Notes: generated from the sequence alone by a model not told the origin. A stretch of DNA of 56,309 nucleotides from Candidatus Omnitrophota bacterium (GCA_016206925.1 JACQQS010000073.1:1-56309), one strand, 5' to 3'; counted from the first letter of the stretch, positions 33,732 through 44,532 are shown. Numbers and translations: made by a program.

Positions 33732-33758
33732 TTCACGAGAAATCTCGTGAATTTTTTT
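33732..33758 (+). terminator. Rho-independent terminator in the leader of the giant gene
   Basis: TTCACGAG and CTCGTGAA form a perfect 8-base stem with a 4-base loop, closed further by A-T, followed by seven T. It lies about 60 bases after the promoter and directly after an orphan ribosome site AGGAGGAG (33724-33731). Placed before the giant gene, it looks like an attenuator or the end of a short RNA of about 80 bases. Confidence 0.8.
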
Positions 33759-33796
33759 GCCCTTTTCGCTTATGCGTTTAAAAAACCTTTCAATTT

Positions 33797-33915
33797 TGTC
33801 ATTCCCGCCGCGCCGACCGCGCGGTGCCGTCGGACCAAGCGCCCGACCGGCGCTTGATCAAACGGCGCGAAAGCGGGAATCTAAAACACTAGGCCCTCGC
33901 TTCCGCGGGGGTGAC
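33797..33915. repeat. GC-rich palindromic interspersed repeat
   Basis: The 119-base segment begins GTCATTCCCGC and ends GCGGGGGTGAC, near-complementary ends, with inner complementary parts such as GCGAAAGCGGG against CTCGCTTCCGC. This is the pattern of the dispersed palindromic repeats common in many environmental genomes. Its in-frame translation (with PRFRGGD) lies upstream of the signal peptide of the giant protein, so the extra N-terminal residues are probably not real. Confidence 0.75.
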
Positions 33916-33939
33916 GCCATCTTTTTAACTTGGCGTCAA

Positions 33940-36900
33940 ATGATCGCAGCAATTCTCCTCTTCTCGTTTACGCTGACCCAGGTATTTCCTGCCGAAGCTT
34001 CAAATTATTTTCAAGCAAGTTCCGGTCTCAATTCTCCGTATCTGGCAATGCTCGATCATCTCGCCATTCCCGAAGAAATGGGCCGCGTCGAGGAAACTTT
34101 CAGGGGAAATAGCGGCGAGCTCGTGCTCTACATTCAGGATGCCCACGCCAACTACGGCGCCCAGAAAGCCATTGCTTCTCTCATTGATTATTTTCTGAAA
34201 AACCACAAAGTTGCTCTTGTCGGACTCGAAGGCGCGGACGGCGGGATCGACCCGGGTCTTTTGCGTGCATTTCCAATAACCGAGGTCAAGCAGGAAGTCA
34301 TGGAACGCTCCCTGAGAAGCGGTGAGATCAGCGGCGCCGAATATTTGGCTGTTGCGGGAGAGAAGGATTTTGATCTGGTCGGCATCGATCGGCGTAAGGT
34401 GTATCGCGAAAATCTAGCGCAATTCTTCGAAGTGCTCGATGCTGCTGGAAGCAGTCTCGAAGCGATCCGTTCAATTCGCACCGCAATGAAGAATCTGCAA
34501 AGCACGGTTTATTCGAAGGCACACCGCGGGCTCAGCGATTTGATTGCAAGGCATAAGGACGGCCGCGCCGATATCGGCATTCTGGTGAAGGGATTGAGAG
34601 AATATGCGAAGCAATCTGGCGAGGATTTATCTCCTTACCCCCGGTTGTCCAGGTGGCCGGAACGATTGGATGACAATGCCGATGCGAAAGCGCTGATAGC
34701 CGATTTAGATATTCTCCGATTTTACCGGGAGATCGAGCGTTTGAGTTTCGCAATTAAATTTCGTCTTGCCGGCACCGAGCTTGAGATGAAACTTATCGCT
34801 CTTGAGGAGTATTTGAATCTTCTTGAGTCGGGATGCCGAGTTGAACTAACGCGCACTGAATTCAGCCGACTAACTGAGCTTCACCAACTGTTTGGTGGGG
34901 AGCTGATTCAAAATCTTCTTACCCAGTCTTCTCGGGAACTGAAACTTCCCATCCCTTCTCTTGGGTCGGAATCTTCGGAGATGGGGGTTCTCTTCGAGAA
35001 GTTGGGCAAATTCTATTGGACCGCCGGCAAGCGGGATGAAATTTTTGCCCGCCGCATCCGGAAAGAAATGCACGTCCGGAATGAGTCCGTATCTGTCTTG
35101 GTTTCCGGCGGATTCCATAAAGAAGGTGTGACGAGAATGCTGCGCCAAAAAGGCGTTTCGTATGCCGTGATTTTACCGCGCATTTCGGAAAACGATTCCG
35201 AGGGCGATTACCTCCGCTTGATGGACAAGAACCGCTCTCTGGCAAATCTGCCGGAAGCGAACACGATCGCACTGCCGTCACGTTTGGGCACGCCCGAATT
35301 TCGGCAGCAGTTTCTAGCAGATTCTTTGGAGCGAATGTTTCAGTTGGCCTCGGAACGCCAGAGCGTTTTGACGCCTTACGGTGTTGATGATCCTTCGCTT
35401 CTTCCTTTGCTTGTCGAACAATCACTTGCGCGGAGGGGAATTCGCCTCTTCTCCGATTTGGGTGTCGCGGCTTCACCTGAAAATCTTCTGACGGCCGCCA
35501 GGCGATGGGACAACCGCAGAGCCGCAACGGGCGCCGCTGATCTTCTCGACGCCGTGCGCAGCACCGCCACTCGGTTACCGAAGTTTTTTGGCGAAGATTT
35601 AGAAAATCTGTCGCCCCCGCACCGATCAGCCAAATGGCGCGGGAATGACAGCGGTGCCTATGAAGCTACTCCTGTTGGCTTTGGCCATCTGGCGGTTTCG
35701 GAAACCGAAGTTATCTTTGTGACAGCATTTCTTGCCTCTTTTGTAGTAATCCGGTTTGTTGTTCCATATGTAATGAAATGGATAAAGAAGCACCAGGAAG
35801 TCAAGTTTGACCGTAACCTCGCAGCTCTGTTTTTTGGCATTGACAGAACCAAACCTCGGCCGCCCGTTGTGTCGATGGAAGAGGTTCGCCAGGAAATTTA
35901 CCGTCAGTTTCCGCACCTTCTCCAGGTCTCGTTTTTGAGGAACCCGATCTTGTGGGTTAAACAATCCAGTTTACTGCTTGAACTTGCTGCCGGGCTGATG
36001 GAGTTGGATAAAGTCTACAAGACTGATTTTTTTGTGAAAGCCGAGAAAGCTATTAGCGTTGCTCAAAAGGTAATGCGAGTGGAACAACTGCTAGGCTTAC
36101 GCGATGAATCCAGGAGATTTGAAGTGAGCACAACGCAGGTTAGAGACTCGCCAGAACTCAGAGAGACCGTTATTCCTTACCGCTATTTAGAGCCTTCAGC
36201 GTTTGATCCTCAAAGTCTTGGCGCTGCGATGATTACTATTGAGGACAAAGCGAAAGCAATACGAAGCGGAGGCCGCCTTCCTGTCGTTAGGATTATTGGC
36301 AAGGCGGCGAGCGGTGTCACGGCTCTTGTCGAACGCATTGAGTATAGCGGTTCATTTGCAGGCATTTCAAGTGAAGATATTGCGGTGGTGGATGATAAAT
36401 TACTGTGGAGTGCCGGGCTTCCGAGAGACAAGGCTGATCTCAGCAAGATGCCGGGCCTTTTGATCATCGACAATAGTTGGGATATCGATGAGATTTCGGT
36501 CGGTGGACAGGCTGTTCATTTCGAACCCATCGACGTGTACGTAGAAGCATCGGAAGAAGCGCGTTGGGCTCGCCAAATGCGACGCGCCAAAGGCGAACCG
36601 ATGCAGGCTTTGGAGCTTGTGATGAATGTTCATATGCAAGCCGCAGACGACATTCGAGAACGGTACTTCGGCGATAGTGTGAAATTACAAGCCGATATCG
36701 TTGCTTATTCTGACGAGCTTTTTGAGAAGATTGCGTCAGGCAAGATTTCTAATACTCCGATCGTTCCGGTTGCCGGCTTTGGGGTGAAGGAAAGGATCGA
36801 CCTTCTTGGAAGCTCGGCTAAAGGTAAGCCTGGCAGCAAAGCAGTTCCGGCAGAGCCTGTGAAAAAGGAGCTAACCGCAGAAGAGGCGTATTCAAAGCCG

Positions 36901-39900
36901 CCAACGTGGATGAAAGTTTCTGAAAATGGCTTCGGGTCCGAGACGTTTTCCGTATCGGCCACTGTGAACAACGAAAAACAAACATGGACCATACGTGAGA
37001 TTCAGCTGAGGGAAAACGTTGCGGAAGCATCGTTTGAAGTGGACTGGGCGCTGCCGGAGTACGGCAGGACACGATACACACTCGCCTTTAATGTGCAAAA
37101 GGGGACGTTTTCCCGGAAGCCAGGGATTTCAGAGCACGAGCCAAATCTTTTTGAATTTTACGCTTTGAGGGGGGCATTAGAACAGATTGCGAAGACTTCT
37201 GACCGAGCGCAGATCATCGAACCGTTCCAAAAAGCGTTGGATAAATATGCGCGGAAGGCCGGCATTGCCGGATTTGGCTCGAGGGCGAAGTTTTCGAAGC
37301 TGCCGCCAAAAACGTCAAACAAAAAGGAATGGCGAGCATGGCATCTGGAAAAAGCTGCTTTTGATGCCCATGAGGCTCGAAAAACGAAAGAGGAGAAGAA
37401 AAAGGTTGAAGCAGTTAAGGCGAAAATTCGCAAAGAAATTCAGAAAACGATGCCCGGTCTTAAGTTGAAAGATTGGTTGCTCACACTTGTAACATTGGGC
37501 ATCTACGGTATCCATAAAGTTATTCAGAATTCCAGCGAACTCAATCGGCTGGTGAATCGGAGGTACGAAGAATTAAAGGCAAGAGCGGCGGAGAACGTTA
37601 AGGCCGGGGATGATTGGCCGCAAAGGGCAGTTGAGAAACCTAATGCTCAGGCTCCGAACGCGGAACTTAGAGGAAAGAGAAGGACGTATTTAGGCGCAAA
37701 AGCTAAACACGTTGCGATGCTCCTGAAACTAATGAAAGACGGCGTTTTGGAATCCCGGCCCGGCGCTCCGAAAAAAATTGAAGATTTGAACGAGCGCTGG
37801 AAGTGGATGTATGAACACAGTTTCTTTTTAAGATGGCACTCCGAAGCAGAGCGAAAAAGCATTATGGATTCCGTAGGCCTCGCACCGAGCGATCTTCTGC
37901 TGACGATCCAGCGAAAAGGCGGTGAAGTTTTCTTTGAAAGCTTGAAGACGGTAGGTGGGAAAGGAACACAGTCACAGCCCATTGCTTTGGGCGGTGCAGA
38001 ACAAAAAGGGCAAGTCGAAGGTCTGGAAACAAAATTTTACCTTATCCTCCCACGGACCGCAGAGGTGAGCAATTTCAGGATGTTGTTCAACTTATTTCCG
38101 GAATTAGAGAAACTTGTACGCAAGGCGGAACAATTATTTCCCGGTTCGCATCCGACCGAAGAGTTTAAAAAAACCCGCGAAATTCCCCTCAGCCAGGCCG
38201 GATTTGGAAGTGATTCGATACCAAAAGGAGAAGCGTTGCGCAGACTCGGGCGTTTAAATTTTAACGAAGAAAGAGAGTCCATTTTGTTCCGCGCATTTTC
38301 CGAAGTTCTCCAGAAGGTTCTTAAAGACGTGTGGGAAAATCCGATCTCGCCCGGGACATTTTTTGGCGATGTTTCAATTGCGATAGAGCAATTAACGAGT
38401 CCGCCGCATTCTTTTTCAGCACCGGATATTCAGTACGTTTGGTCGCGTGTTTCCGACATAGTCGACCGTATGGTCAAGCCGGATGGAAATAAATATCTCG
38501 AATTTGCTTCCCGCGTCAGAAATTTGGTCGAGGTAAGAATTAAGCGGGATGCAGCAGAAGCGCTGCGTGCGGCTGAAGAAGCAAGGAAGGCGGAAGAAGC
38601 GCGCCGGGAAAAAGAAAAGCCGGCTTTAATTCGCAGAGATAGCCCGGCTCGTGGCGCTCCTCGCAAAAGGCCGGCAGCACGTTCAGCCGCATACGAGTCT
38701 GAATTAGCCGAACTTCGTCAGCTTTTGGATCACAGCAACAGAAAGCTTGTTCCGCTTCGCATTATTGGTTTCGTGATTCGGGAAAGCGATGGCAGAGTTT
38801 CAGGTCTTGAGGTGTGGTACAAAACTTCCGTGGTCGGTTTCATTCCCGCCGGTCATTTTCCAAACGGCCCCGAGGAATTCCTGAAGCAGAAGAAACTTGA
38901 TATCGAAGGCTTTGTAATGGAAATCAAAGGCGACACCGGCCGCGGACATGTCATATTTGGCTTGCCCCGCGCTAAGGAAGCCGAAGTTCTCGAAGAGCTG
39001 CACAGGGATGAATGGGAGTCGTACCGTGGTGGAGAGGAACAAAAAAAGATCTATGAAGTCCGGATCGTGCGTGTAATTGCAGATACTCGGTATTCTACAA
39101 CCAGCGTACAGGTACACGGGTACGAAGTCAGTTACAAGGGTGTTTTAGGGTTCGTTCCTGTTGTAATGGGTCCGGGGGGTTATCAAGACAGGTTTACAAA
39201 TGATCTTCCTTCACTCCGCAAGGAATTAGTAGAGAAAGTTTTTCCGGCTATTTTCCTCAGCATTGAGCATAGAAGAGGGAGAGAACGTCCGGCATTCGCC
39301 ATTGACCGCGCCGAAATTCAAAAGGCGGTTAAAGAAATAAGAGATACTCCGGTACTCAAAAGGAAACCTGTGGCCGTAAAGGTCACAGGATTTGCCGAAA
39401 TCTACGATGCTATTGCGGGTCTGGAGGTGAAATGGGGGAGTGTAACCGGCAGAATCTTATTTTCAGAAATTCCAGAGCGGTTTTACCAAAATGGCATCAG
39501 CAATCTTATTGGTACTACGGTCAATGCGCATTTGATGCGCGCCGATTTTTCCCGCGGAAGACCCCGCGTTTCGTTTTCGCTTTTTGATCGCGAGAATTTG
39601 TATGACCTTAGTGATGATCTTAGTATTAGAGCACGGTCTTCATTGTACGAAGTAGAACTTCTACACCGGTTGGAGGATGCCAAGCAAGCTAGAACGCAGG
39701 TTCGCGTTCTTGTTACGGGCAGAGCAAAGTCAGGAAATGGTTTTCACGTACTTTATGGCGGGCATGTGAGCGGAATTTTAAGCAGAAGAAGTTTGGACGC
39801 GGCAGGAATGACCGATTCTCAGTTTTACTCAGACTCGATTTTGGGCACCGAGTATGAGGTTTATGTTCTTGAAACCACGGGCGGTCACATGGGCGATCTT

Positions 39901-40587
39901 GTCATTTTTTCATTGGAGCCGCCGCGTGCTCGTTATGAAGACAGCCGAAACGCGCCGGGCTCTTCTTATACAACGAGCGATCAACCGGGTCGTGCGGAAT
40001 CGAAACCGAAAAAGCCGCGCAGAGGCGGTTTACAGTCCGATCATTTCTATGATTCCGGCTTTGGTGCGGCTGAAGCAGGTTTTGGGGGGAGCGCTCAGCG
40101 ACAGGAAGTGATCGAAGCGGTGCGCGAGGTTGTGGAGAGATCAGCTCGGGAAACAGGACAGCCGCTTTCGGAATTCGGCACGGTCGTCTTTGGCAGCGAA
40201 AGTGATTTCGCGCGCTTCGAGAAAGCCGTTGTCAAATATTCGCCGGCGGTACGCGCGCAAGGGTTCGGAGTAATCCAAAACATTGTGGCGGGGTGGGAAG
40301 TTGCCGAGGAGGATAAAAGTTCAATTTGGCTCCGCATGTCCGAACTTTTCTCCGGCCGCGGCCAGCGGATTTATGTCGGTACGAATGATCAAAAAGTTTT
40401 TGCCGGTATTCGCAGTGGTGCGGAGGCCGCACTTCTCGGGCAAAAGACCGAGTACCTTCTTAGGAAAGTGGAAGACCAGTTCGTCCTCGAAAGGATGAGT
40501 CAGAACGGCGACCGCTTCATGGATGTCGTTCTCGAAGCCCTTTACCTGCGGCAGCTTGCGGAAAACCTTACCGCGGCCGCCGCGTAA
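33940..40587 (+). CDS. Giant secreted mosaic protein (Tiki/ChaN-like, degenerate P-loop, S1-like repeats)
   Basis: The open frame begins at 33757 (2276 codons), but the first 61 codons are mostly a palindromic repeat; the ATG at 33940 opens a signal peptide (MIAAILLFSFTLTQVFPAEA). Residue numbers here count from 33757. Residues about 90-480 resemble the Tiki/TraB/ChaN fold (IQDAHANYGAQ near 127, GLEGADGG, SGGFHKEG near 449). A membrane segment lies near 654-673. Residues 840-1000 resemble uridine kinase, but the P-loop reads GKAASGVT, with Val for the essential Lys. A second hydrophobic stretch lies near 1235. A Lys/Glu-rich linker is followed by four degenerate S1-like repeats (about 1652-2059). 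GFG motifs recur at 1007, 1058, 1172, 1482, 2101, 2108 and 2169. Omnitrophota are known for such outsized proteins; the function is unknown. Confidence 0.8.
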   Translation: MIAAILLFSFTLTQVFPAEASNYFQASSGLNSPYLAMLDHLAIPEEMGRVEETFRGNSGELVLYIQDAHANYGAQKAIASLIDYFLKNHKVALVGLEGADGGIDPGLLRAFPITEVKQEVMERSLRSGEISGAEYLAVAGEKDFDLVGIDRRKVYRENLAQFFEVLDAAGSSLEAIRSIRTAMKNLQSTVYSKAHRGLSDLIARHKDGRADIGILVKGLREYAKQSGEDLSPYPRLSRWPERLDDNADAKALIADLDILRFYREIERLSFAIKFRLAGTELEMKLIALEEYLNLLESGCRVELTRTEFSRLTELHQLFGGELIQNLLTQSSRELKLPIPSLGSESSEMGVLFEKLGKFYWTAGKRDEIFARRIRKEMHVRNESVSVLVSGGFHKEGVTRMLRQKGVSYAVILPRISENDSEGDYLRLMDKNRSLANLPEANTIALPSRLGTPEFRQQFLADSLERMFQLASERQSVLTPYGVDDPSLLPLLVEQSLARRGIRLFSDLGVAASPENLLTAARRWDNRRAATGAADLLDAVRSTATRLPKFFGEDLENLSPPHRSAKWRGNDSGAYEATPVGFGHLAVSETEVIFVTAFLASFVVIRFVVPYVMKWIKKHQEVKFDRNLAALFFGIDRTKPRPPVVSMEEVRQEIYRQFPHLLQVSFLRNPILWVKQSSLLLELAAGLMELDKVYKTDFFVKAEKAISVAQKVMRVEQLLGLRDESRRFEVSTTQVRDSPELRETVIPYRYLEPSAFDPQSLGAAMITIEDKAKAIRSGGRLPVVRIIGKAASGVTALVERIEYSGSFAGISSEDIAVVDDKLLWSAGLPRDKADLSKMPGLLIIDNSWDIDEISVGGQAVHFEPIDVYVEASEEARWARQMRRAKGEPMQALELVMNVHMQAADDIRERYFGDSVKLQADIVAYSDELFEKIASGKISNTPIVPVAGFGVKERIDLLGSSAKGKPGSKAVPAEPVKKELTAEEAYSKPPTWMKVSENGFGSETFSVSATVNNEKQTWTIREIQLRENVAEASFEVDWALPEYGRTRYTLAFNVQKGTFSRKPGISEHEPNLFEFYALRGALEQIAKTSDRAQIIEPFQKALDKYARKAGIAGFGSRAKFSKLPPKTSNKKEWRAWHLEKAAFDAHEARKTKEEKKKVEAVKAKIRKEIQKTMPGLKLKDWLLTLVTLGIYGIHKVIQNSSELNRLVNRRYEELKARAAENVKAGDDWPQRAVEKPNAQAPNAELRGKRRTYLGAKAKHVAMLLKLMKDGVLESRPGAPKKIEDLNERWKWMYEHSFFLRWHSEAERKSIMDSVGLAPSDLLLTIQRKGGEVFFESLKTVGGKGTQSQPIALGGAEQKGQVEGLETKFYLILPRTAEVSNFRMLFNLFPELEKLVRKAEQLFPGSHPTEEFKKTREIPLSQAGFGSDSIPKGEALRRLGRLNFNEERESILFRAFSEVLQKVLKDVWENPISPGTFFGDVSIAIEQLTSPPHSFSAPDIQYVWSRVSDIVDRMVKPDGNKYLEFASRVRNLVEVRIKRDAAEALRAAEEARKAEEARREKEKPALIRRDSPARGAPRKRPAARSAAYESELAELRQLLDHSNRKLVPLRIIGFVIRESDGRVSGLEVWYKTSVVGFIPAGHFPNGPEEFLKQKKLDIEGFVMEIKGDTGRGHVIFGLPRAKEAEVLEELHRDEWESYRGGEEQKKIYEVRIVRVIADTRYSTTSVQVHGYEVSYKGVLGFVPVVMGPGGYQDRFTNDLPSLRKELVEKVFPAIFLSIEHRRGRERPAFAIDRAEIQKAVKEIRDTPVLKRKPVAVKVTGFAEIYDAIAGLEVKWGSVTGRILFSEIPERFYQNGISNLIGTTVNAHLMRADFSRGRPRVSFSLFDRENLYDLSDDLSIRARSSLYEVELLHRLEDAKQARTQVRVLVTGRAKSGNGFHVLYGGHVSGILSRRSLDAAGMTDSQFYSDSILGTEYEVYVLETTGGHMGDLVIFSLEPPRARYEDSRNAPGSSYTTSDQPGRAESKPKKPRRGGLQSDHFYDSGFGAAEAGFGGSAQRQEVIEAVREVVERSARETGQPLSEFGTVVFGSESDFARFEKAVVKYSPAVRAQGFGVIQNIVAGWEVAEEDKSSIWLRMSELFSGRGQRIYVGTNDQKVFAGIRSGAEAALLGQKTEYLLRKVEDQFVLERMSQNGDRFMDVVLEALYLRQLAENLTAAAA

Positions 40588-40961: not shown

Positions 40962-41882
40962 TTGTCTCGATCTTGCAAGAATTTCCTTTTGCTTCTCGCC
41001 TGCGCTGCATTTTCCGGCTGTGCGGGGCTTATGTTTCAAATGGCTCCGGTCGGTTTTCAGCACCCGTTTTTTCAAATGACATTCCCGGACTTGCTGCCAA
41101 ACGAAGCCGAATCGGCCGGTGTTCAATTAGCCCTCAAAATGCCGGAAGCCGGCGGGCTGCGGTATAAAGGAAACATATTGCTTTTTGCGCGCGAGAGAAA
41201 CGGCGAGGGGATCAAATTCGGATTTGATATCCTGCGCTTAGAAAAGTTTGAACCTGCAGGCGGGGACGGGACATTCACGCATGAAATCCGGCATGAGATT
41301 GACAAAGGCGGCGGACAGATCCATGAGAAAATGATTGTCGCGCCGGACGGTGCAGTTAAAAAATTCCTAAAAGGCGAGCACCGCTCGAAGCTCGGAAAAT
41401 TTGACGTTCTGGAATACCGCCGGCCGCCTCTTTTTCCCGATCATCCCGTGAAGATGGGTGATCGATGGGCCTATGAGGAGGAGATTACCGTAAAACTTCG
41501 CTCGTTCTGGATAAAACAGAAAAGGCCGTCGCATAAAAAGATTTTGGCCCGCTCGGAGCTTAAAGGTTTTACCACCGCAGGGGGGCGGCGTGTCGCTGTT
41601 GTTTATACGGAAGCGGAAGAGCAGAGTTCGGAAGAGTTTTCAATCATGTTTAAGGACATCAAAATGGATGTGAGCACTAAAATCGAAGAAATCATTCACT
41701 TTGATTACGAGCGCGGCGCGGTTCTGAGGCGTTTGACGAATACGCTTACGCAAAACACGGTGCCGGGCCTGGGCATTTCGGAGACGGGAAAAAGCCAAAG
41801 TTTCTTCTACTTGGACGAATTACACGAGGATGGTTCTTGCGGGGAAAAACCCGTTGAAGCAGGGGACGGCGCTTGCGCTTGA
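40962..41882 (+). CDS. Predicted lipoprotein of unknown function
   Basis: Translated from the TTG at 40962 the protein has a classic lipoprotein signal (KNFLLLLACAAFSGCAG); the frame extends to an ATG at 40911 that would overlap the previous gene. The mature part of about 285 residues is beta-rich, with paired charged strands (HEIRHEIDKGGGQIHEKMIV; VKMGDRWAYEEEITVKL), resembling periplasmic proteins that measure or bind lipids, but no family can be named. Its last 63 bases overlap the end of the convergent decarboxylase gene. Confidence 0.65.
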   Translation: MSRSCKNFLLLLACAAFSGCAGLMFQMAPVGFQHPFFQMTFPDLLPNEAESAGVQLALKMPEAGGLRYKGNILLFARERNGEGIKFGFDILRLEKFEPAGGDGTFTHEIRHEIDKGGGQIHEKMIVAPDGAVKKFLKGEHRSKLGKFDVLEYRRPPLFPDHPVKMGDRWAYEEEITVKLRSFWIKQKRPSHKKILARSELKGFTTAGGRRVAVVYTEAEEQSSEEFSIMFKDIKMDVSTKIEEIIHFDYERGAVLRRLTNTLTQNTVPGLGISETGKSQSFFYLDELHEDGSCGEKPVEAGDGACA

Positions 41883-43067
41883 ATAGGCGCCGATGTTTTT
41901 GACATACACCACATTTCCGACATCCAGCTCGGGAAGCTCTTCGCTCGGAGAAACCACGTCAAATGAATCGCAGGTGGGGCCGGCTACAGTGCTCAAAAAT
42001 TTCTGGCCGCGCCGGAGCGTCTTCAGCTCGTATTTGCAGTTGTCGAAAACGATGCCGGAAAAATCGCCGTACACGCCGTCGTTTAAATAATAGTAATTGC
42101 GGTTGTTTCTAAACGTTCTCCCGACTACCTGGGTAATCAGCGTCCCCGCCGGACCGACCAGGAACCGCCCCGGCTCGGCCATGATCTGCACTTTTTTCAA
42201 ATCAAACAGTTTTCTCAGCGCTTTTCTTATTTTCCGGGCAATGTCTTCAAAAGTAGGCCCATCTTCCCGGTCAAAATGCTTGATGGGAAAGCCGCCGCCG
42301 ATATCGAGCATGTGCAGGTGCAGGCCGCTCCGTTCTCCCTCCTTAAATAAATTGGATGTTACGCGTAACGCATCGATATAACTATCCGCAAAGCGGCATT
42401 GGGATCCCGCGTGAAAACTGATGCCTTCGGGCTTTAATCCGAGCGCTTTGGCTTTCTCAAGCAGGAACACGGCCTGGTCCGGATCGGCGCCGAATTTCAG
42501 GGAGAGTTCAACCTGACTGCCCATATTAATTACCTTGATGCGCACGAGCACACGGCTTCGCGGGGCAAATTTGGCAATTTTGTAGAGCTCAGGCTCATTG
42601 TCAAATGTCATGAACCGCACTCGGCTTCGATAAGCAAGCTGAATGTCGGCAATGGATTTGATCGTGTTCGCAAATATGATCTGATCCGGCTTTGCGCCCA
42701 GCCGGAGAACCTGGGCCATTTCATTTCCGCTGGCTACGTCAAAACCGGCGCCGAGTTTTATGAAATATTTCACGATGTCGGGATGTGGATTGGCCTTGAT
42801 CGCATAATACGGCTTCACGTTGGGAAGAGCACGCTGGAAGCGTTGGTACTGGCGGGCAAGCGTTTCCCGCTCGATCAGCATAAGGGGCGTAGCGTGTTTT
42901 CTGAGCACTTCACGGATAAGAAATTCGGTACCCTTGGTACCCGGTTTTCCATTTTGTCTTCCGTTTGGACGGAGAACTTCACTGCCGTTTGTTCTTTTCG
43001 AGACGGGGATTAGAGTGGTGGCGGGGCGGTTAAACTTGGGTTGATGCGTAAGCAACCTGTGTCGCAC
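41820..43067 (-). CDS. Fold-type III PLP decarboxylase (ornithine/lysine decarboxylase-like)
   Basis: About 415 residues. The PLP-binding Lys is in PYYAIKANPHPDIV; other family motifs are SFHAGSQC, MLDIGGGFP, AEPGRFLVG, GPTCDSFDVV and the C-terminal GAYSSASAVPCFNGF. The CDSFD stretch is that of ornithine (and lysine) decarboxylases rather than carboxynorspermidine enzymes, so putrescine production is the best guess. The start is unclear: the frame reaches 43145 inside the preceding gene, and a GTG at 43067 has AGGGAG 12 bases upstream. It follows homospermidine synthase, so the pair could turn ornithine into homospermidine. Confidence 0.85.
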   Translation of the reverse strand: MRHRLLTHQPKFNRPATTLIPVSKRTNGSEVLRPNGRQNGKPGTKGTEFLIREVLRKHATPLMLIERETLARQYQRFQRALPNVKPYYAIKANPHPDIVKYFIKLGAGFDVASGNEMAQVLRLGAKPDQIIFANTIKSIADIQLAYRSRVRFMTFDNEPELYKIAKFAPRSRVLVRIKVINMGSQVELSLKFGADPDQAVFLLEKAKALGLKPEGISFHAGSQCRFADSYIDALRVTSNLFKEGERSGLHLHMLDIGGGFPIKHFDREDGPTFEDIARKIRKALRKLFDLKKVQIMAEPGRFLVGPAGTLITQVVGRTFRNNRNYYYLNDGVYGDFSGIVFDNCKYELKTLRRGQKFLSTVAGPTCDSFDVVSPSEELPELDVGNVVYVKNIGAYSSASAVPCFNGFFPARTILV

Positions 43068-44532
43068 TAGGCGCTTCGACTCCCTGTTGAGAAACCAAAA
43101 ATGTAGTAAATTGCCAGATGTCTTCTTCCCTAGGCGGTTTAGCACCGTAATCCAGATAGGTGTTCTTGCGGTTTTTGATAGGCGTCCAGTCCACGGGCTC
43201 GGAAATAAACGGCCCGAGGTATGGCTTGCTGTCTCTTAAAATTTGATCGTGCGGCAAATCATCCGGGACACATACGCCCTTCTCCGGATAGGCGATTATC
43301 CAGAGAGCAGCCGCAATCACCGAAATAGCCACTTGAAGCGTGGTCGCGTTTTGACCGGGCACGAGGCGCCGCGCCTCCTCAATGTCAAGCAAGCTTCCGA
43401 TCCACCACGATGTAAAATCGTGGCCCATGAGCAGACAGCCAAGCTCATCGCGGCCGCTGATGATTTCATCGGACATGATTCTCTGAGCCGGTTGTACTTC
43501 AAACTGTCTCATTTGAAGTTCGATGAGCGAATTAACCGCGGCATCAGCTGGCCGGTATGCATAATGCACCGTCGGCCGGTAAAGGGCCGCTTTACCATTC
43601 CATACCGTTAACTTGTCCGAAATTGAGAACGCTTCACCATGACGGATGACCATGCCGATCATTTCGCCGCACGGTACCCATGAACGCACCAGAGTGTTTA
43701 ATCCTTTGCTGGTCAGACAGATTTGGTTCTTTGGCCCTTCGGTGTGGAACATGGCGCCGCGAGGAATATATTTTTCGTGTGTGCCCCATCCCAGCTCGGA
43801 AGGTGCGACACCTTCTTCATAGAACCCGAGAATGCTCCAGGTGTTCACAAACTCGTTCACCCGTTTCGGCCTGTCGGTGATTTGCGTGTCGCGTTCGCTG
43901 ATGTGAATCACCTTTACGCCTTCCAGCATGGCCATCTGCGCAAAATCCTGTTTTGCAAGCGCTTTCTCCAACCGGGGCCGTCTCGGATCATTGGGTTTCT
44001 CGGAAAGGATCTTCTCACCGATATCGATGAGAGCCTGCTTCGTGAAGTGTGATACGAGCCCCGGATTGGCACCGTGATCAACCACTGCTGTGGAGCCAGG
44101 TTTTTCAGGCCACCGCGCAATCATTTTTCGCATGCGCATATGGCGCGCATAAAGAGTGAGTTCGGTCGGGTGCTTTCCTGCCGCGCCGCGGTAGGGCTCC
44201 CAAAGCTCAATCGAGGTGTTAATGTATAAAACCTTATTTTTATGACACCACTCGAGAATTTCGCATGTGTCAATATCCCACGCTAGATCTATGATCAAAT
44301 CTCCGGGCCCAACGTATTGGGCCAGCAAAGCCGGATAATTTTCTCTCGTAACTTTCTTCTGGACATATTTTACACCGCAGTCGAGCGCGCTTTTTACTTT
44401 CGCGCGATTATCGACATAATCCATGACGGTAATTTTTTCAGGCGGCATTTCAACGTGTTTGAGGACAAGGGGGATAACGCATTGAGAAACACTGCCGCAG
44501 CCGATTATGAGGAGTTTACCTTTAAATTTCAT
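43030..44532 (-). CDS. hss: Homospermidine synthase
   Basis: A 500-residue protein of the saccharopine dehydrogenase-like family. It begins with an NAD-binding motif (LLIIGCGSVSQCVIPLVLKH), followed by DLAWDIDTCEIL, NTSIELWEPYRG, DHGANPGLVSHF and QNATTLQVAISV, and matches homospermidine synthase over its usual length. The enzyme joins two putrescine molecules, or putrescine and spermidine, to give homospermidine in an NAD-dependent reaction in the cytoplasm. The decarboxylase gene follows with an overlap and would supply putrescine. The ribosome site is weak (GAGAAAG). Confidence 0.9.
   Translation of the reverse strand: MKFKGKLLIIGCGSVSQCVIPLVLKHVEMPPEKITVMDYVDNRAKVKSALDCGVKYVQKKVTRENYPALLAQYVGPGDLIIDLAWDIDTCEILEWCHKNKVLYINTSIELWEPYRGAAGKHPTELTLYARHMRMRKMIARWPEKPGSTAVVDHGANPGLVSHFTKQALIDIGEKILSEKPNDPRRPRLEKALAKQDFAQMAMLEGVKVIHISERDTQITDRPKRVNEFVNTWSILGFYEEGVAPSELGWGTHEKYIPRGAMFHTEGPKNQICLTSKGLNTLVRSWVPCGEMIGMVIRHGEAFSISDKLTVWNGKAALYRPTVHYAYRPADAAVNSLIELQMRQFEVQPAQRIMSDEIISGRDELGCLLMGHDFTSWWIGSLLDIEEARRLVPGQNATTLQVAISVIAAALWIIAYPEKGVCVPDDLPHDQILRDSKPYLGPFISEPVDWTPIKNRKNTYLDYGAKPPREEDIWQFTTFLVSQQGVEAPSATQVAYASTQV

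Follow-up and report, generated by a model that had tools for sequence, protein, structure and literature searches.

Giant secreted proteins of Candidatus Omnitrophota with a TIKI-like header and genome-specific pentapeptide punctuation: candidate bacterial polyproteins

Introduction

A stretch of 56,309 nucleotides from a Candidatus Omnitrophota bacterium (GCA_016206925.1, JACQQS010000073.1:1-56309; the whole stretch is hereafter the window) carries on its plus strand a single open reading frame (ORF; 33940..40587), which runs from an ATG at 33940 through 2,215 codons and a stop codon without internal stops, and which raises the question of what so large a secreted mosaic might be for. A first-pass annotation had recognized the open frame, its secretion and its mosaic character, all of which are borne out, and had read the product as a set of eroded enzyme folds; it overlooked both the shared N-terminal family and the repeated GFG motif described below. 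The protein as a whole retrieves nothing significant from Pfam, PHROGs, NCBIfam or PDB sequences, and the available part of an earlier account of giant ORFs in this phylum describes them as poorly conserved and their functions as difficult to assess (Seymour et al. 2023, PMC10066038). Here we assign the window protein to a large and hitherto undefined family of giant bacterial secreted proteins, the units of which are separated by a short peptide characteristic of each genome, and we weigh the possibility that these chains are polyproteins.

A common header defines the family

In the window's own genome (2.01 Mb searched, 86% complete, with the stretches around family members read) about 15 paralogues have aa 1-450 in common, each with a different continuation, in frames of 461 to 13,402 aa, the longest of which is free of N. 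We call this common region the header. A profile built from 13 of these paralogues matched every one of the 39 genomes searched within the same order and 141 of the 285 of the phylum, and the named matches are metagenome-assembled genomes of Candidatus Omnitrophota, some of them labelled Elusimicrobia. Such assemblies make up the genomes used here, and most giants from foreign genomes were read over their first 20 kb or less. Masked N stretches in some records may inflate unread frame lengths, and N-free frames (up to 13,402 aa) were relied on; a 26,694-aa frame on C33 was discarded as an artefact of a masked N run.

The window protein opens with a predicted signal peptide (33940..33999, plus strand, aa 1-20), composed of a hydrophobic core and A-E-A (aa 18-20) before the likely cleavage point, and an equivalent hydrophobic segment lies ahead of the header in every paralogue. 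From these signal peptides it follows that members of the family should be exported. Where one or two membrane segments had been annotated, one is clear (35704..35775, plus strand, aa 589-612).

The header is not always joined to a giant body. In several families outside the order it is a separate gene of about 520-590 aa, and at six of seven loci this stand-alone header directly adjoins or overlaps an ORF of at least 1,000 aa that runs in the same direction and bears a signal peptide; three of the seven loci look orthologous and so are not independent.

Several further arrangements were encountered. Headerless giants beside stand-alone headers (L083-L087) bear a short LRTxS / LRPxSA-like stretch just past the signal peptide, which may be a maturation signal of another kind. 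At another locus (L089, G210:C57, 186-15771) three header genes of 2,966, 589 and 1,538 aa stand in a row, and in the window's own genome one header and its GFG-bearing body occupy two separate frames (L038, G000:C69, 291-2443), likely through a frameshift or as a decayed paralogue.

A pentapeptide punctuates the chains

The tripeptide GFG occurs eight times in the window protein, against 0.7 expected. The punctuation sites, all on the plus strand, are VGFGH after the header (35677..35685, aa 580), AGFGV (36775..36783, aa 946), AGFGS (37270..37278, aa 1111), a second AGFGS (38200..38208, aa 1421), SGFGA (40057..40065, aa 2040) and AGFGG (40078..40086, aa 2047). NGFGS (36928..36936, plus strand, aa 997) is weaker and perhaps no site, and the GFG at aa 2108, which lies inside the C-terminal unit, is probably none. 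The giants of the same genome (G000) contain 81 GFG in the context [AS]GFG[AVS], with GFGA found 38 times and AGFG 33 times against 0.8 expected for each. The strict [AS]GFG[AVS]-type motif is absent from the 20,306 aa of the other frames of the window, and the frames neighbouring giants contain no punctuation motif.

GFG was considered as a phylum-wide motif and rejected, being specific to the window's genome, with other genomes devoid of GFG punctuation. The giants of families f2, f4 and f8 bear R[SA]E[LVMA]R as their punctuation (in G021, RSELR occurs 87 times against 0.1 expected) and those of f7 and f3 bear AxSLG, the motifs being mutually exclusive by genome. The sites lie between units: there are none inside headers and none inside Pfam domains (0/82, with 8.8 expected), their flanks are hydrophilic, many domain edges have a site 6-60 aa away, and the first site usually falls 20-250 aa past the header.

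A motif of this kind could be a functionless by-product, whether a DNA-level repeat or a duplicated linker. DNA repeats of palindromic type do insert into these genes in frame (in C55b, near aa 7605-7630), and some RAEVR linkers of one chain (L187) are near-copies. Against this, the codons are varied (58 of 63 RSELR and 30 of 35 GFG have distinct DNA spellings) and the flanks, which a DNA-level origin would require to be shared, are unrelated; the peptide and not a DNA repeat is therefore under selection, and the codon diversity rules out a DNA-repeat origin. The by-product reading also leaves aside the avoidance of headers and domains and the switching of the motif in concert across orthologous headers (see below), and it is largely refuted and very improbable in our estimate. 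Selection on the motif is accordingly placed, from codon usage and flanks, at the peptide level.

In the 5,332 aa of chain L187 (G016:C13) itself there are 31 R[SA]E[VLAM]R sites; near-identical LTSVKS linkers come after several of them, which suggests linker duplication in that genome.

The motif switches in concert between lineages

A header tree of 54 rows contains clades with 100/99-100 support in which headers from genomes of different motif type stand together, and the motif labels need 14 changes on this tree where the minimum is 2. Since the labels are scattered in this manner, the motif type goes, by this sequence comparison, with the genome and not with the gene lineage. The homology between giant bodies is too low for gene conversion to account for the shared motif, and the motif after homologous S1 arrays is GFGA (twice) in the window and RSELR in G005. 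The concerted switching, together with an S1 array that has a different motif after it, points to one trans-acting reader per genome. When the motif was predicted beforehand for nine further genome sets, it was present in seven and a different motif in none; of the nine, G006 is apparently a genome that had already been sampled and is not fully independent.

The chains also tend to a common ending. Among complete header-bearing giants 24 of 35 end in [AS]A, the exceptions being mostly outside the order, as do 7 of 8 in a later set, and the C-terminal residues of stand-alone headers are charged. The S41 tail-specific protease was rejected as a general reader of this tail, as it is missing in five of the eight genomes with [AS]A-ending giants.

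The main rival to cleavage by such a reader is that the punctuation serves for docking or anchoring: a genome-encoded chaperone, translocation ratchet, scaffold or sorting enzyme would bind each linker, and the chain would remain whole on the cell surface. A frequency of roughly one motif per domain, the export signal, the hydrophilic linkers and the concerted switching would suit a binder equally well, and giant proteins of Omnitrophota have been proposed as coats or adhesins (PMC10066038). On the other hand, the cargo resembles intact enzymes, some of them dependent on cytosolic cofactors, and not adhesin repeats, and the spacing of the motif is irregular and tracks domains, not length. We consider docking unlikely, though a serious contender.

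The header as a likely TIKI-superfamily hydrolase

The header domain (34042..35229, plus strand, aa 35-430) is predicted to adopt a TIKI-superfamily-like hydrolase fold. On the same strand, the D and H of its D67-A-H69 motif (IQDAH; 34138..34146) and E97 (34228..34230), 28 residues past H69, are found in 72 of 72 relatives, and the G, G and H of the G390-G-F-H393 motif (35107..35118) in 68 of 68, so that D67, H69, E97, G390, G391 and H393 are invariant in the 68-72 relatives compared. The catalytic residues of the TIKI superfamily are 2His/2Glu (PMC6254334), and D67-x-H69, E97 and H393 correspond to this quartet in order, with Asp replacing the first Glu. The H69-E97 spacing of 28 equals that in BcR135 (His-85/Glu-113) and VvRRSP (His-3902/Glu-3930), in both of which the pair is 28 apart (PMC6254334). 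Because these residues are invariant and spaced as in TIKI proteins, the catalytic-type residues of the header are, on sequence grounds, not eroded, contrary to the earlier reading of the N-terminal domain.

An AlphaFold2 model of the header (predicted local distance difference test, pLDDT, 80.6; core >90) has the erythromycin esterase EreC as its best PDB fold match (Foldseek, prob 0.96, E 2.3e-3) and the EreA-like 3b55 as the next, with low TM-scores that speak to the superfamily level only. Sub-threshold matches to Pfam ChaN, found in nine genomes, all fall on the header (best E 3.5e-4). In hhalign comparisons the header matched an esterase (Ere) alignment at E 0.0063, where controls gave 0.04-0.68 (best control 0.044), and the register was correct, with H69 and E97 aligned with the esterase His and Glu; the header profile drew only chance matches from the PDB. 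Membership in the TIKI superfamily is likely, resting on weak sequence statistics combined with the motif and the modelled fold, and the Tiki-like region of the first-pass annotation stands at a superfamily-like level. The header resembles the TIKI/ChaN/erythromycin esterase superfamily in its predicted fold, for which EreC is the best match, and has the D/E-x-H element, the E 28 residues on and a late GxxH; it differs in the D for E, a preceding Q for G, a helical insert of about 235 aa, a score under every Pfam cut-off and its place as the N-terminal module of giants.

An active header might itself cleave the chain that it heads at the punctuation, in the manner of the MARTX cysteine protease domain. 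The header is N-terminal and its TIKI-type residues are intact, and a TIKI member, VvRRSP, is an endopeptidase (PMC6254334). However, orthologous headers sit on giants with different motifs, diverse headers of one genome go with a single motif, punctuated giants exist that have no header (C72, C55a and L186; C72 and C55a are at contig starts), and header-bearing giants outside the order are without punctuation. On two of these counts, the different motifs served by orthologous headers and the headerless punctuated giants, autocleavage is less likely, and we hold it to be improbable. As headerless punctuated giants occur and the header stands alone beside giants elsewhere, cutting at the punctuation is probably not its task.

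MARTX (PMC2900308, PMC6254334) nonetheless offers a parallel in being a giant exported multi-effector chain with inter-effector processing, which is presumed here, and in having an effector, RRSP, that is a TIKI endopeptidase. In the Omnitrophota family, by contrast, the presumed processing site is a strict genome-wide pentapeptide and the header is N-terminal, and neither RTX repeats nor the cysteine protease domain were matched in the window protein (Pfam, PHROG, NCBIfam) or in Pfam scans of the paralogues that were read.

Units between the punctuation sites

Unrelated enzymes with apparently intact motifs lie between the punctuation sites of paralogues and relatives. They are often complete and include MutS-type ATPases with Walker motifs, an ABC1 kinase, M48 (HELNH, of the HExxH type) and a transglutaminase (C-H-D), along with GH130, methyltransferases, APH, GNAT, PCMT, SNF2, NUDIX, CofD and histidine phosphatase domains. 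The 13,402-aa, signal-peptide-bearing chain of G000:C55 contains a whole phosphoglycerate kinase with intact motifs (about aa 4563-4965; L034-L036). Along this chain there are also about 24 hydrophobic segments and, near aa 12257, an intact P-loop.

In the window protein, four S1-like repeats were located by profile search (38737..38985, 39037..39330, 39361..39597 and 39688..39930, plus strand). Single repeats fall under the Pfam cut-off and the four by themselves match only ribosomal S1, at E 0.8; a ten-repeat profile, joining them with six from a relative in another family, reaches ribosomal S1 at E=1.9e-10, and all 20 of its PDB matches are of S1 type (S1/Rrp5/GSP13 chains), which agrees with the four repeats first annotated. 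The C-terminal unit (40090..40584, plus strand, aa 2051-2215) has a homologue in the final unit of paralogue C72, and ends in AAAA. Of the structure predictions of segments, that of the header was informative, and the model from the S1 repeats to the C-terminus, made without an alignment, was useless (pLDDT 34). The order of units is as peculiar as had been claimed: it was not found elsewhere, and among 58 genomes searched the body has relatives only piecewise, with the last unit in C72 and the S1 array in G005, G016 and G085.

The uridine-kinase-like region could not be confirmed. A possible P-loop kinase-like region (36274..36729, plus strand, aa 779-930), within the unit at aa 583-945, has a degenerate Walker A (GKAASGVT) that lacks the lysine; it has no Pfam or PDB match, a PRK model search of the genome was silent at the window, and there is no similarity to the intact P-loop kinase of C55b. 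Within the window protein only this stretch looks decayed, and its identity as a kinase is unproven.

These units bear on the earlier view of an eroded mosaic serving as a structural, binding or decoy protein at the surface. The P-loop-like stretch without its lysine, S1 repeats diverged below Pfam cut-offs and the many bodies without a Pfam match are in its favour. The bodies of the paralogues, however, appear to hold mostly intact enzymes, and these, with the invariant quartet of the header, count against a general decoy or structural role, which strikes us as quite improbable; erosion of the recruited folds survives, in looks only, for the P-loop-like stretch.

Cleavage in trans as the preferred reading

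The gene would encode one member of a set of giant modular chains, spread over the genome and exported, in which the pentapeptide would be recognized by a single trans-acting factor in each genome. This factor would most likely be an endopeptidase that is specific for the site and divides the exported chain into separate proteins, which would make these chains bacterial polyproteins: judged by their motifs, each holds several separate intact proteins, with a common short consensus at the junctions. Cutting of the exported polyproteins at the punctuation by a trans-acting endopeptidase is the best explanation we can offer, with its chances evenly balanced. The header would be an active hydrolase that helps the maturation or delivery of the chain, a weaker part of the proposal. 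Speculatively, the dependence of cargo enzymes on ATP or other cytosolic cofactors would fit release inside another cell by these host- or prey-associated bacteria. In the complete scheme each genome would encode many exported polyproteins, which would consist of intact enzymes, begin with an active TIKI-superfamily hydrolase and be cut at the genome-specific pentapeptide by one trans protease that co-evolves; this scheme is plausible but falls somewhat short of even chances.

Several points weigh against cleavage. Punctuation is scarce or absent in two f4 genomes (G017 and G025) and in families outside the order, and the small sample read from the two remaining sets of the nine predictions (G002 and G022) yielded no clear motif. 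No protease logic common to the motif types is obvious, a recognisable fold is missing from many units, and cleavage at the motif is inferred from sequence, with the protease only postulated.

Viral polyproteins, such as those of potyviruses, have one short consensus at all their junctions, which is species-specific and switches with a single trans protease. The lineage-specific five-letter peptide separates domains genome-wide in much the same way as these cleavage sites do, but in cellular genes, with many chains per genome and a reader that is postulated.

Other features of the locus

Upstream of the ATG at 33940 the frame stays open back to a TTG at 33757, and this interval (33757-33939) is one of the places with dispersed, peptide-encoding DNA repeats, among them one for SFPRKRES...RLRGGD-like peptides. 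The others are the C55 giant of G000 (about aa 7600-7635) and the headers of C45 (L030) and C13 (L033). Such dispersed in-frame repeats, in linkers and N-terminal extensions, resemble the Rickettsia palindromic elements. On the minus strand, 41820-44532 holds two overlapping same-strand frames that, by eye, are LysA-type decarboxylase-like and homospermidine/saccharopine dehydrogenase-like.

Implications

The giant ORFs already described (PMC10066038) come from the same phylum and are likewise giant secreted or membrane-spanning frames with few annotated domains. The available part of that account does not mention a shared header, genome-specific punctuation or a C-terminal tail, and another preprint on giants may hold an earlier notice. 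The phrase 'bacterial polyprotein' did not occur in the literature searched. The header, the readable punctuation and the C-terminal tail make the Omnitrophota giants parsable strings of units that are directly testable, and the recogniser could be sought through its covariation with the three motif types. If the proposal is true, polyproteins on such a scale would be new for bacteria.

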